DNA from: Corynebacterium sp. NML130628
GTDB lineage: Bacteria > Actinomycetota > Actinomycetes > Mycobacteriales > Mycobacteriaceae
Reading direction: 5' to 3'
DNA length: 64,000 bases
NCBI RefSeq assembly: GCF_001875665.1
Contig: NZ_MLAL01000015.1
Span: 22,953-86,952, forward strand
How positions within the stretch are numbered: position 1 is the first letter of the stretch; each line of letters begins with the position of its first letter. The position numbers were made by a program, and so were the translations under genes. The notes beneath the pieces are model-generated. The model was not told the DNA's origin, made no database searches, and was given only the letters and a program-made list of their open reading frames with translations. Shown here piece after piece: positions 59,821 through 64,000 of the stretch.

Positions 59821-60976
59821 TCACTCTTCAAACTCAGGCAGACGAAGAATATCTGCGACCACATGGGTGCGAAGGTACTCGCGCAGATAGGGGAGAGCGA
59901 AGTCTGCAGTGCCGCGGTCATAAGTGATTAGGTCGGCCTCGCTAAGGCGGCGTCGATAGTTGTAAGCTTGTTGTTCGCTCACCTCGAGACGGTTGGCGAC
60001 GTCGCTGATTTTCGAGGCGCCATCATCAAGCGACATTGCGGCAAGGAACCTGCGATCCTCCGCAGAGAGATCGTTGAGCGCTGGTTCGTGAACAAGTTGC
60101 CCAAAGTTTCTTCCTGGCGCGAGTGATCGCCTTTTCCGTAGCGTCCATGCGAATTGTGTCAGAGGATTCGAAGCGCCAAGCGAAGTTGCCAATCAACTGG
60201 ATCATGAACGGATAGCCTCCAGTCGCTTGTACAGCGGTCGCGAGGGCGTCCTCCTCCCACGAGCGGTCAGCCTGCTGAACGGGAACTATGAGGCCCTCAC
60301 GGACCTCTGTACCTCTGAGCCGACCGAGATCTACGCGATTTGCACGTCTCAGGAACGTGATCGGATTGCGCCCTTCGTCACTAGCAAGGAGAGGTCTCAC
60401 CGAACTTGGAATACCTGCCAATACTACGGCGATTTCTCTGTTTTCCCGGACGAGGTGTTGGATAGCCGTCGCGAACTCCACAATTTCATCATGGTGTACG
60501 AAATGGAGCTCATCGACCGTAATCAAGACACCACTGGCAGAGCGGTTAAATCTTTTGTGGTTTGCGAGTGTGTCAAGAACCTCCGTGAGTAGAGCGCGGA
60601 GTGGGCGTGGGTTGTGGGCAGGCCGCTCAGACTCGTGCTTGAGACGCAAAGCACTTGGGCCAACTTGAAACGAGATCCGGGTTGCCCTATCGCTGTCTAG
60701 AAAATCTGTGAGTTGGCCTCTCAACTTATCGACGAAGCCCTCAGTCGCCGTTTCGGAAAACGTTAGCCACCCAGCGTCTTTTGCGGTGTCTTCCAACTCG
60801 TTGAGTAGGGCTGTTTTGCCAATACCTCGTGCGCCAACGAGGAGTGAGATGCGTTCGTGTGCACCTGGTCCCTCCTCAAGCCCGAGTCTGAAATCATCAA
60901 TTATTTCGTCGCGGCCGACTAAAAGTGGTGGGCTAGTCCCAAGCGAAGCACGGAAAGGGTTTTGCGCGGTGGTCAT
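59821..60976 (-). pseudogene. AAA/ORC-like ATPase with winged helix, frameshifted
   Basis: Two frames together make a ~385-residue protein. N-terminal part (60976 to ~60108): Walker A GARGIGKT (48-55), Walker B-like 'VLITVDELHF', sensor-like 'AVVLAGIPSS'. C-terminal part (to 59821): helix-turn-helix 'DVANRLEVSEQQAYNYRRRL'. The frame changes near 60107-60109 (an extra A in the sense AAGAAAC): removing it joins ARK to NFGQLVHE in one frame. It may be a true decay, a sequencing error or programmed shift. Homologous ATPases act in mobile elements. It lies upstream of the AddAB-like pair. Confidence 0.72.
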
Positions 60977-61035: not shown

Positions 61036-61427
61036 TGCGGATCTGTGTATAACTGGCGGCGGTTGTATGTCAACGTCACGGCGGCTGGAACTTGTATCTG
61101 GGAGGGGAGCTGAGCAACACTTTCCGGTACCATCCCCTAACTGACGGGCTGGTTCTGGGCGGAGAACCAAAGGAAGTCCACGCTGATGTACCCGCACGAT
61201 ATTCGCCCGCTGATATCAAACCCACCACAGGAGGATTGAGCACGCTACAACACCAACCGGACGGTGCTTTCTGCGCATGAAACATCTTATAAAACTCTTG
61301 AATCGGTGAGGACCATTGGTTATCATTACGGCACAGCTGGCGATAAGTCCTCCAGGGGAGGACTTCTTACCCCGATAGGTGAGATAGCCAGCTCCTTTAT
61401 GTTTCATGGTCGACCCAAGGTCGCCCC

Positions 61428-61595
61428 ATGGAAGAAGCCGAGCTCTCAAGCGTCGGTTTTATGCACGGCTCAAACCATGTGCATGTCTTACCCTATAAGT
61501 GCCGCTGCACAGCCCAAAGGCCATACTCAGCTACTTGCAGTCCCCACGCTGAGGGCGCAGTCCACACGCATAGCGTAGTAGTGCGCTGTATCTAG
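61428..61595 (+). CDS. Possible 55-residue Cys/His-rich protein
   Basis: ATG at 61428 with AAGG ~7 bases upstream. Peptide features: 'MHGSNHVHVLPYKCRC', 'SATCSPHAEG', 'VHTHSVVVRC'. The Cys/His pattern could bind zinc, but the frame may be chance. No homology recognised. Confidence 0.22.
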   Translation: MEEAELSSVGFMHGSNHVHVLPYKCRCTAQRPYSATCSPHAEGAVHTHSVVVRCI

Positions 61596-61690
61596 CTATA
61601 CACTTCTTCTACTGCTTGTCGTGCAGCATCTCCTCCCCTTCGCCGACTCTGATTCCGGCCATCTTAGCTTTTGACGTCGCGTGAGAAGCC

Positions 61691-61885
61691 GAGAGCGATG
61701 TGCGGGCCAAGGACACGGTGGATACTGCGCAACGGCAGATGCAGGACTTGTTGAAAACGCTGCTTGCCCGTGTGGCGAAGCTCGAAGAGGGCCAGGAGGC
61801 ACTGGAAGTGAAGTACAACTTCAGTTTGGCTGCTTTTGCGGCAGGTGCGTCAGCGCTATCCCGTGCTGTGTATCGATGTGCATGA
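61691..61885 (+). pseudogene. Coiled-coil/TM gene remnant, holin-accessory-like
   Basis: The + frame 'DTAQRQMQDLLKTLLARVAKLEEG' is a clear heptad coiled coil, followed by hydrophobic 'NFSLAAFAAGASALS'. This layout resembles small phage XhlA-like proteins. A stop codon interrupts the frame just upstream (61682-61684), and no good start signal is visible, so it looks like a relic. Confidence 0.4.
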
Positions 61886-62246
61886 GTCCGTGGAAGCTGA
61901 CCTGTAACCCGGGCTGCCAGTGTGGTGAGAAGTCTTAAGGCTCCGTCGGACGCATCAACACTAGGTGTGGCTGGCGGGGTCTTTTTTGCTGTAGCCAGTG
62001 GACGTTTCGGGCTTCCTCTCACGGGGAGCCCGGGCGTGCTGGGTGCCAGGTTTTCACTTCTTCGGTGTCCCATAGTAGAGCTGATTTGCCCCATGTGGCG
62101 ACAGGGCCGGGCGTGTGCTGGTTCGTGTAATAGTTCGCCCAGGTGCGGGAGTGTTCCTATATAGTTTGTCAACTCTATGGGTGAGGTTGTTGGGGGTGTA
62201 AGGCTTCTGCTTCGCCTTGTGGATGTTGTTTTTGGGCATCTTAAGG

Positions 62247-62275
62247 AGCCGATTGTGCTTTCTGCTCAATCGGCT
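62247..62275. other. Stem-loop with 9-bp perfect arms
   Basis: AGCCGATTG and CAATCGGCT around an 11-base loop, upstream of the microcin-like unit. A weak terminator candidate for whatever was on its left. Confidence 0.45.
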
Positions 62276-62539
62276 TAGATGGGGGCTGTTGGGTCTAGGC
62301 TGTTGCGGCCTCCTGGACCGGGGGGATGTCTCGATAGAGCACGCCACTGCACATCATGGCGAAGCGGGCGCTTCGACGGTGGACACGGAAAGAGGCGCCC
62401 GCGACGCCCAAGATACGAACGCGTCTATTCGAATCAGAATGACCGCGTCTCATCCATTGCGTAGGGTTGGAGGCTTGATCCCAGTACGTCCCTCCGCCAG
62501 CATCGGCGAATAGTGATCCTCCTCACATTTTGAGACATG

Positions 62540-62568
62540 TTGAAAGAAGGGTCACCGAAGTGTAGTAG
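62540..62568 (+). promoter_or_regulatory. Candidate promoter of the microcin C-like operon
   Basis: TTGAAA (62540-62545), 17 bases, TAGTAG (62563-62568). The -10 match is modest. The resulting leader to the 7-codon gene would be ~40 nt. Confidence 0.3.
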
Positions 62569-62613
62569 TCTTTTGCGCTGTACCAATAAACGACAACCCG
62601 AAAGAAGGACGCC

Positions 62614-62637
62614 ATGCTGGGACGTGTTTTTAACTAG
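62614..62637 (+). CDS. mccA: MccA-like heptapeptide precursor (MLGRVFN)
   Basis: A seven-codon gene, ATG through TAG, encoding MLGRVFN. Microcin C7 of E. coli is made from MRTGNAN, also seven residues with C-terminal Asn; the Asn is the residue that MccB converts and links to AMP. Here the C-terminal Asn, formyl-Met start and an internal Arg are present. AAGGA (62605-62609) lies four bases before the ATG. A 13-bp hairpin follows 12 bases after the stop, and an MccB homologue is next. The peptide was assigned because of these neighbours; by itself a 7-codon ORF would be meaningless. Confidence 0.82.
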   Translation: MLGRVFN

Positions 62638-62649
62638 GGCATTTTAATT

Positions 62650-62681
62650 CCCCTTCCCAGAAGATGTTTTCTGGGGAGGGG
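62650..62681 (+). terminator. Attenuator hairpin between mccA and mccB
   Basis: CCCCTTCCCAGAA (62650-62662) pairs with TTCTGGGGAGGGG (62669-62681), 13 bp with one G-U pair, loop GATGTT. No clear U-tract follows. In E. coli a hairpin here gives abundant short mccA RNA and lets part of transcription continue to mccB. Confidence 0.75.
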
Positions 62682-62699
62682 CTTCTCGTAAAGGTATTT

Positions 62700-63755
62700 A
62701 TGTACACCGTACTTCCGACCGGAAAAATAGCAGAAACCGAAACTTCCATCATTATTGGTCTCGGTAGTCGACAGCTAGTCGTCTCAAAAGACAAGCGTGA
62801 GTACTACAAAGAAATTCTAGAAGCTGTCCAATTTGGGCTTAGCGACGCTGACGCCAACTTGATAAAGGAAAAAGATTTTAACTTTAGAGACGCGTTTGAT
62901 GCCTTAGAGCAAGGAGGTGTTATCTCCTCAAAGCGGTTAACGACTTCAAAAGCAGATGGGATTCGATACAAATCATCTTTATATTTGAGTTGTTTCGCTA
63001 ACGATGTTGAAAGCGTTTCGGACAGGATGGAAAAAACGACGATCTTCGTAATAGGATGTGGCGGGATCGGTAATCATGTTGCCTACAGCTTAAGCTCGTT
63101 CAATATCAAGAAGATGATCTTGATTGACGGAGATATAATCGACGAGACTAATCTGAATAGACAATTTTTGTTCGGTGTTGAAGATATCGGTAAACCGAAG
63201 GTCGACGTACTAGCTAAAAAGATTCACTCGCTCCGTCCTGATCTGGACATACAAACTTATAACGACTTTGTTAAAAGCGGTATCCTGACAAAAATTCTTG
63301 ATGAGACTAGCGGTCCTGCAGTAGCGGTGCTATCCGGAGACAGCGAGGATCTATTGCTCAATATCTGTCCGATACTCATCGAGAATAGAGTTCCGTTTTT
63401 AAACGTCGGATATTTGAACGACATCTCCGTGATTGGCCCATTCTGGACAGACACTGAAGATGCCTGTCCTTTCTGTTTCAACGGTCTGGGAGTACAAGAG
63501 GATTTAAGCAGCGAGGACAGCTTATCGAATTACTGTTCTGGCTATCAGGCTCCGTCTTGCATGGTTAACAATTCCTTTGCTGGGGCAATGGCAGTCTCCG
63601 ATATTATTAATTTCTGGTCTGGCGACAAGTCACACATCAAATCGGTAAACAAACGAGTTGGCTTCGCGAACTCTACTTTTGAAATATTGAATGTCCCTTT
63701 GCGAGTTGATAGCCATTGCCCCGTCTGTTCTTCGATAAATCAACATGGCAAATAA
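62700..63755 (+). CDS. mccB: MccB-like peptide adenylyltransferase (E1/ThiF superfamily)
   Basis: A 351-residue protein, almost the length of E. coli MccB (350). The start at 62700 follows TAAAGG; the in-frame ATG at 62664 lies in the hairpin loop and is rejected. N-terminal ~110 residues form the peptide-binding part. The E1-type core has GCGGIG (119-124), 'DGDIIDETNLNRQFLFG' (from 143, nucleotide-binding), and an Asp at 214 in LSGDS, the position of the magnesium ligand of MccB. A structural zinc site is formed by CPFC (256-259) and CPVC (340-343). Expected reaction: adenylylates the C-terminal Asn of the MLGRVFN peptide through a succinimide to give a peptidyl-AMP phosphoramidate. AT-rich codons contrast with the host core. 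Confidence 0.88.
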   Translation: MYTVLPTGKIAETETSIIIGLGSRQLVVSKDKREYYKEILEAVQFGLSDADANLIKEKDFNFRDAFDALEQGGVISSKRLTTSKADGIRYKSSLYLSCFANDVESVSDRMEKTTIFVIGCGGIGNHVAYSLSSFNIKKMILIDGDIIDETNLNRQFLFGVEDIGKPKVDVLAKKIHSLRPDLDIQTYNDFVKSGILTKILDETSGPAVAVLSGDSEDLLLNICPILIENRVPFLNVGYLNDISVIGPFWTDTEDACPFCFNGLGVQEDLSSEDSLSNYCSGYQAPSCMVNNSFAGAMAVSDIINFWSGDKSHIKSVNKRVGFANSTFEILNVPLRVDSHCPVCSSINQHGK

Positions 63756-63903
63756 ACACTCAAAGAATTGGTTGCTCAAAGATGCGGCAACCCCTTATTT
63801 TGCAGCTCAACTTTTAACAACCGTAGGGCTTTCGATGCCCCATGCGATACTTACGCCACTTTTGTTGGAAAAGTGGGGTTGCCCGCAAATCGTGGACACG
63901 TAG
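63745..63903 (+). pseudogene. MFS exporter gene, truncated by IS insertion (MccC-like)
   Basis: Starts by ATG at 63745, overlapping mccB by 11 bases. About 49 codons are authentic: charged opening, then a hydrophobic 'YFAAQLLTTVGLSMPHAILT' helix and 'PLLLEKWG', the first helix and loop of an MFS transporter. The frame then enters IS DNA and stops at 63901. In microcin C clusters an MFS exporter (MccC) exports the compound and gives self-protection. The rest of the gene may lie beyond the IS, outside the window. Confidence 0.75.
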
Positions 63904-64000
63904 TGGGGCTACCTAGTGTTTAGGCAGCTATTTCTTTTCTACTGGTGGTTAGACCAATGTGGTTTTCGAAGTCGACGGGGCTGACCATTCCTAGTGCAGA
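63892..64000 (-). mobile_element. IS3-family element, right end and 3' transposase part
   Basis: From about 63892 (TGGACACG...) the DNA belongs to an IS. The transposase 3' end (63920-64000) is on the minus strand. The element continues beyond the window. The exact junction needs the other end. Confidence 0.75.
63920..64000 (-). CDS. IS3-family transposase OrfB, C-terminal fragment
   Basis: The minus-strand frame gives S-A-L-G-M-V-S-P-V-D-F-E-N-H followed by a short tail and TAA at 63920-63922. The 'SALGM.SP..FE' ending is the well-known C-terminus of IS3-family transposases. Only 26 residues are in the window. Confidence 0.85.
   Translation of the reverse strand, partial: SALGMVSPVDFENHIGLTTSRKEIAA

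Follow-up and report, generated by a model that had tools for sequence, protein, structure and literature searches.

In Escherichia coli, MccB links AMP to the Asn of the microcin C precursor through an N-P bond and MccC exports the product (described in PMC6495379 and PMC9239234). Inside target cells, which take it up and trim it, aspartyl-tRNA synthetase is then blocked, according to the same two sources. The trimmed form is reported not to be exported by MccC (PMC7157772), and export is described as one part of immunity (PMC10233263, PMC6795089). In other bacteria HIT proteins are reported to act on product without the aminopropyl group (PMC7157772). The precursor gene mccA has been defined as a short frame, no more than 300 bases from mccB, that begins with Met, ends with Asn and has a strong ribosome-binding site, and in E. 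coli a terminator lies between mccA and mccB; the N-terminal part of MccB is a peptide-binding RRE (all described in PMC6495379). The long-precursor clusters of Yersinia and Nocardia are described as having a precursor of at least 11 residues and an MccB with a carboxymethyltransferase domain (PMC12250964, PMC9239234), which the cytidylating MccB enzymes of these two genera carry after the ThiF part (PMC9239234).

As judged from titles and the beginnings of abstracts, we met no corynebacterial heptapeptide mcc operon in the open-access literature; the host table of PMC6495379 could list one. Microcins are absent from the RiPP classes that a survey lists for 148 respiratory Corynebacterium strains plus 13 reference genomes, and its text never uses the word (PMC12188740); nor does a paper on skin corynebacteria (PMC10683109).

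Here we analyse a window of 64,000 nucleotides from Corynebacterium sp. NML130628. It very probably carries a minimal mccA-mccB-mccC operon of the microcin C type, whose MccB is predicted to couple the Asn of the heptapeptide MLGRVFN to a nucleotide, probably AMP, and whose mccC is, in this assembly, cut by an insertion element. The initial annotation had read the locus as a microcin C7-type operon, a reading that is supported by the sequence and predicted fold of MccB, by the MccB tree, by the Asn-ending heptapeptide and by the same layout in a second genome of the genus (G063) and in Helicobacter pylori. The features are listed in Table 1.

Table 1. Features of the mcc locus (positions in the window)
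Feature	Position	Strand	Basis
AAGGA, likely Shine-Dalgarno site of mccA	62605..62609	+	read in sequence, scored by script
mccA, MLGRVFN and stop (7 codons)	62614..62637	+	reading and frame scan
mccA-mccB intergenic stem-loop of 14 pairs without T-run	62650..62681	+	folding against shuffles
mccB, 351-residue MccB-like nucleotidyltransferase	62700..63755	+	sequence, alignment, predicted fold, tree
mccC 5' stub, 43 MFS exporter codons, overlaps mccB, broken	63745..63873	+	frame and homology
end of IS3-type insertion element, reaching the contig end	63874..64000		shared sequence and plasmid annotation

The mccA minigene and its surroundings

The seven-codon gene reads ATG CTG GGA CGT GTT TTT AAC TAG, with the AAGGA 4 bases upstream of its ATG; the ribosome-binding match comprises 5 bases and is not long. 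From the start of mccA to that of mccB the distance is 86 bases. MLGRVFN has the Met start, the Asn end, the ribosome-binding site and the proximity to mccB (within 300 bases) described for MccA. Three Asn-ending seven-codon ATG frames occur in the 64 kb, both strands considered, and by the rule of our script MLGRVFN alone has a Shine-Dalgarno match, on which ground a chance minigene was rejected for the window. The heptapeptide and its C-terminal Asn are present as first noted, and the peptide differs, as also claimed, from the MRTGNAN of E. coli.

The hairpin that follows mccA is strong, as had been proposed, with a folding energy of -24.9 kcal/mol and a z score of -3.0; 2 of 200 shuffled sequences fold as well. 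A classic terminator is unsupported because the T-run is absent and a terminator scan of 62400-63000 did not pick up the hairpin. Known RNA families gave no match up to E 0.1 in 61200-64000. Ten mcc loci were folded (L013 and L018 were left out), and in seven of them no more than 7 of 200 shuffles fold as well as the stem-loop just after mccA; the three that fail this level are L015, L019 and L097. The hairpin of G063 depended on how the region was cut, being not significant with one cut (31/200 shuffles as low) and borderline with the other (7/200). The strongest stem-loop of the ten was that of L017, a Borreliella turdi locus (z -7.2).

The G+C content is 43% at 62580-63873 compared with 61% at window positions 1-59000, in agreement with the AT-rich insert originally described. 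Upstream of mccA, positions 62147-62364 match an IS110-type transposase gene at its 3' end. They are likely to be an element remnant, since similar sequence (77-86%) is found at many places in the genus. Positions 61652-62149, which may perhaps be a prophage remnant, show 85% identity to a stretch on another contig of a relative, G161, next to an amidase gene. The segment 59849-61263 is missing from the equivalent site in G161 and contains a frame for a 316-residue AAA-type ATPase on the minus strand (60026-60976).

MccB

Pfam finds a single domain in MccB, ThiF, at residues 107-341. An in-frame ATG is also present at 62664, but relatives align from 62700. Both CPxC motifs described as zinc motifs were recovered (residues 256-259 and 340-343), and an alignment of 24 sequences shows no change at any of their four Cys. 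Further invariant sites in that alignment are D143, D145, NLNRQ (151-155), D214, N235 and GYLN (237-240). The comparison with MccB families suggested by the initial annotation is led, among solved relatives, by E. coli MccB (E 4.8e-30, 27% identity); ubiquitin E1 comes next (E 2.4e-14). An AlphaFold2 model (pLDDT 86.4, pTM 0.84) gave the same leading relative: among the 50 matches listed, E. coli MccB occupies ranks 1-24, PaaA ranks 25-26 and ThiF rank 27, and the matches listed after PaaA are ThiF and E1 enzymes. The model aligns to E. coli MccB over 345-356 columns, the N-terminal part included, so that the ThiF part stands behind the peptide-binding RRE part typical of MccB. The protein is thus, as proposed, a 351-residue E1-like enzyme of the MccB kind by sequence and by predicted fold.

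Clustering of the homologues only with ThiF/MoeB proteins had been named as the result that would speak against this assignment, and the opposite was seen. In a tree of 30 rows, a branch with support 91/97 separates the 27 that we labelled MccB, including those of E. coli and H. pylori, from MoeB, MoeZ and a PaaA-like row, the last being a Pantoea ThiF-family protein that we picked and not a proven PaaA. This tree omits a short Cetobacterium ThiF row, which an earlier tree placed among the MccB rows, so that MccB was then not one-sided. The window's MccB, P0001, P0002, P0003 and the G063 protein form a clade with support 100/99; beside it (88/92) stand P0008, P0053 (source name Luteococcus) and P0061/P0062 (source name Bifidobacterium). 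Long branches lead to E. coli MccB, to the PaaA-like row and to MoeB and MoeZ, and they join one another, which leaves the deep order of the tree unsure.

The interrupted exporter gene

The MFS exporter gene said to overlap mccB does start within it, but the open frame 63745-63903 holds just 43 exporter codons and its bases from 63874 on belong to the insertion element. The window ends where its contig (C3) ends, and the element sequence from 63874 also closes contigs C8 and C24 of the assembly. The only matching plasmid record, from C. tuberculostearicum, is 96.8% identical to the element and is annotated at the match with an IS3 family transposase and a 3'-5' exonuclease. Outside the window, contig C1 opens with the opposite end of an element, followed by the remainder of mccC. 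Four bases are repeated at both sides of the break in mccC and are not common to C8 and C24; from these bases and the two mccC pieces we infer that C3 adjoins C1. An intact relative of 421 residues, P0132, is 95% identical to the stub (41/43) and 96% identical to the C1 piece (349/363). The exporter gene is thus present and overlaps mccB, and it is interrupted here but intact in G063, G161 and P0132. Because it is broken in this genome, secretion by the strain is, on the sequence, doubtful.

The next large gene on C1 past mccC encodes glutamine synthetase on the opposite strand. Of the genes that were to be sought beyond the element, mccE and mccF are therefore not directly downstream of mccC, and neither is mccD.

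A relative with the opposite loss

In G161 the equivalent site lies between a PD-(D/E)XK nuclease gene and glutamine synthetase, and its flanks are 91% (4,529 bases) and 94% (5,888 bases) identical to the window's genome. A nuclease relative at 45% identity bears the name C. epidermidicanis. The mccC of G161 is intact, with 421 codons, and its product is 97% identical to P0132. Counterparts of window positions 61264-61433 and 63686-63873 adjoin in G161, where mccA is absent and a remnant corresponding approximately to the last 20 codons of mccB, with 8 extra bases, is left. Matches to mccB up to E 1 in the whole G161 genome were only this remnant and one MoeZ-like match. The persisting remnant points to synthesis genes that G161 has lost, rather than to a pump that arrived first. 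Judged from these sequences, the mcc operon decays in opposite ways in the two relatives, since the window's genome has mccA and mccB with a broken mccC and G161 has mccC without mccA and most of mccB.

Distribution

MccB was found in 2 of 242 genomes of the genus (E 1e-20) and MccC-like genes in 8 of 242 (E 1e-60), leaving six genomes with the pump only, G161 among them. In samples of the order and the phylum the window's own genome alone was found (1/397 at E 1e-25 and 1/396 at E 1e-40). The pumps of the other five pump-only genomes (G134, G007, G166, G133 and G098) match at 38-56%, one of them along only half of its sequence, and may be exporters of a general kind. In the stretches of about 11 kb around them there is no mccB match to E 1, apart from one in G007 (E 0.014 over 29 residues) that lies away from the pump. 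Among the 120 of 214 protein matches that were listed, many are Corynebacterium MFS proteins 45-48% identical to the G063 exporter. Where they are named, the MccC-like MFS proteins P0133-P0249 come mostly from C. pseudodiphtheriticum and C. propinquum, among the matches listed. In G134 and G133 the lone pump sits between two like membrane protein genes.

Minigenes were sought at 12 loci, namely the window, G063, L013-L020 (8 of 80 mccB loci, the other 72, at E 9e-25 or weaker, being left out), and two plasmids, one from E. coli and one from H. pylori. At 11 of the 12, an ATG frame of seven codons that ends in Asn and has a Shine-Dalgarno match lies upstream of mccB; the chance control applies to the window and not to the other 11 loci, and for L013-L020 distances run to the mccB match rather than to a proven start. 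The exception is L013, which has an eight-codon GTG frame instead. Besides MLGRVFN the heptapeptides are MFGGLSN (G063), MIGPIQN, MAGPLRN, MLLSVRN, MLGKNFN, MYGILRN, MRLIIRN, MRTGNAN, MKLSYRN and a doubtful METEIGN (L018), which lies 357 bases ahead of a partial match. Four of the loci have additional Asn-ending frames. MLGKNFN, upstream of the mccB-like gene of Borreliella turdi (L017 5614-5637), is close to MLGRVFN.

Alternative explanations

The Pfam label ThiF might suggest that mccB encodes an ordinary ThiF/MoeB enzyme activating a sulfur carrier and that the heptapeptide frame is there by chance. This is extremely improbable. None of the 25 listed NCBIfam models reaches its cut-off with MccB, the ThiF/MoeB cut-off thus included, and the genome possesses a separate MoeZ-like protein that groups in the tree with MoeB and not with MccB. 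Chance would also have to account for the ribosome-binding match of one Asn-ending frame in three, and for G063, which repeats the layout with another peptide. A housekeeping enzyme was therefore rejected on the NCBIfam cut-offs, the ranking of predicted folds and the tree. It is likewise unlikely that MccB adds another nucleotide, such as CMP, to the Asn or carries out other RiPP chemistry of the ThiF type. Cytidylating MccB enzymes are described in the family (PMC9239234), and the fold is described as common to PaaA and other ThiF-like RiPP enzymes (PMC12250964). However, MccB of the window stops at residue 351 with ThiF as its only domain, where the MccB of Nocardia and Yersinia has the carboxymethyltransferase domain, its peptide has 7 residues against 21 in the Nocardia precursor, and the PaaA-like row falls outside the MccB rows.

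That the operon is a dead relic, its mccA and mccB open yet unexpressed and the strain without product, is a serious possibility to which we give somewhat less than an even chance. The interruption of mccC fits a relic, as do the prior loss of mccA and most of mccB from G161 and the flank with its remains of an IS110-type element and of a second region. A scan of 62400-63000 that found no sigma-70-like promoter fits it too, though such a scan says little. Against a relic, mccA and mccB are intact, and P0001, an MccB 95% identical to that of the window, is open in other samples.

Proposed function and significance

Under our preferred reading as a microcin C-type operon, the C-terminal Asn of MLGRVFN would be nucleotidylated by MccB, probably with AMP. 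On the E. coli model, other bacteria would then take up the exported product as a peptide, their peptidases would trim it, and the trimmed form would block aspartyl-tRNA synthetase. The window's strain probably secretes little or no product. If the genes were on, a strain that has mccA and mccB but lacks the pump should poison itself; mccA and mccB are therefore probably hardly expressed, or general enzymes, HIT hydrolases for instance, let the strain tolerate the product. The genome has three HIT proteins and one match to S66 peptidases, all of which may be plain housekeeping proteins, and no S51 peptidase was found in it.

We offer only tentatively the wider picture of an operon torn in opposite ways in closely related, probably human-associated corynebacteria, in which the sister genome would be a non-producer that kept its pump and is immune to the antibiotic of its neighbours, and the five further lone pumps would serve immunity in the same arms race. 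The locus extends microcin C operons of the heptapeptide type to Corynebacterium. MLGRVFN and MFGGLSN are new precursors, and synthetic versions of both can be assayed at once with the cognate enzymes. The relatives amount to a natural experiment in which the pump was lost in one genome and the synthesis genes in another, and they therefore allow a direct look at what MccC does in export and self-protection.

Comparison with known mcc systems

The gene order, initially compared with E. coli mccABC, is common to G063 and to the annotated mccABC of H. pylori. The operon of G063 (MFGGLSN), in the same genus, also runs mccA-mccB-mccC, with an MccB 45% identical to that of the window, an MccC 52% identical to the C1 piece and a G+C content of 45% against 59% around it. 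It differs in its intact exporter and in its chromosomal site, between pieces of a glycosyltransferase gene. These pieces are alike on both flanks (L009 7593-8144 and 10803-11219), a hint at how the operon was inserted.

The three-gene operon of H. pylori plasmid HPP12 (MKLSYRN) is annotated as MccA, MccB and MccC; its MccB is 36% identical to the window's and its MccC 35% identical to P0132. It is plasmid-borne, has an intact exporter and encodes another peptide. With the mccABCDE operon and mccF of E. coli (MRTGNAN) the locus shares an Asn-ending heptapeptide, the MccB fold, an MFS exporter overlapping mccB and a stem-loop after mccA, whereas its MccB is only 27% identical, its heptapeptide is another one, and the window's genome has a broken exporter and lacks mccD, mccE and mccF directly behind mccC.

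Actinobacterial clusters with mccA, mccB and mccC are described for Nocardia vaccinii and Mycobacteroides abscessus in PMC9239234. In contrast to the present locus these have a 21-residue precursor (N. vaccinii), a bifunctional cytidylating MccB and the extra genes mccD, mccE1, mccG and mccX, according to the same source. Long-precursor mcc clusters of Nocardia and M. abscessus are thus already known (PMC9239234), and what appears to be new here is a putative heptapeptide operon in Corynebacterium.
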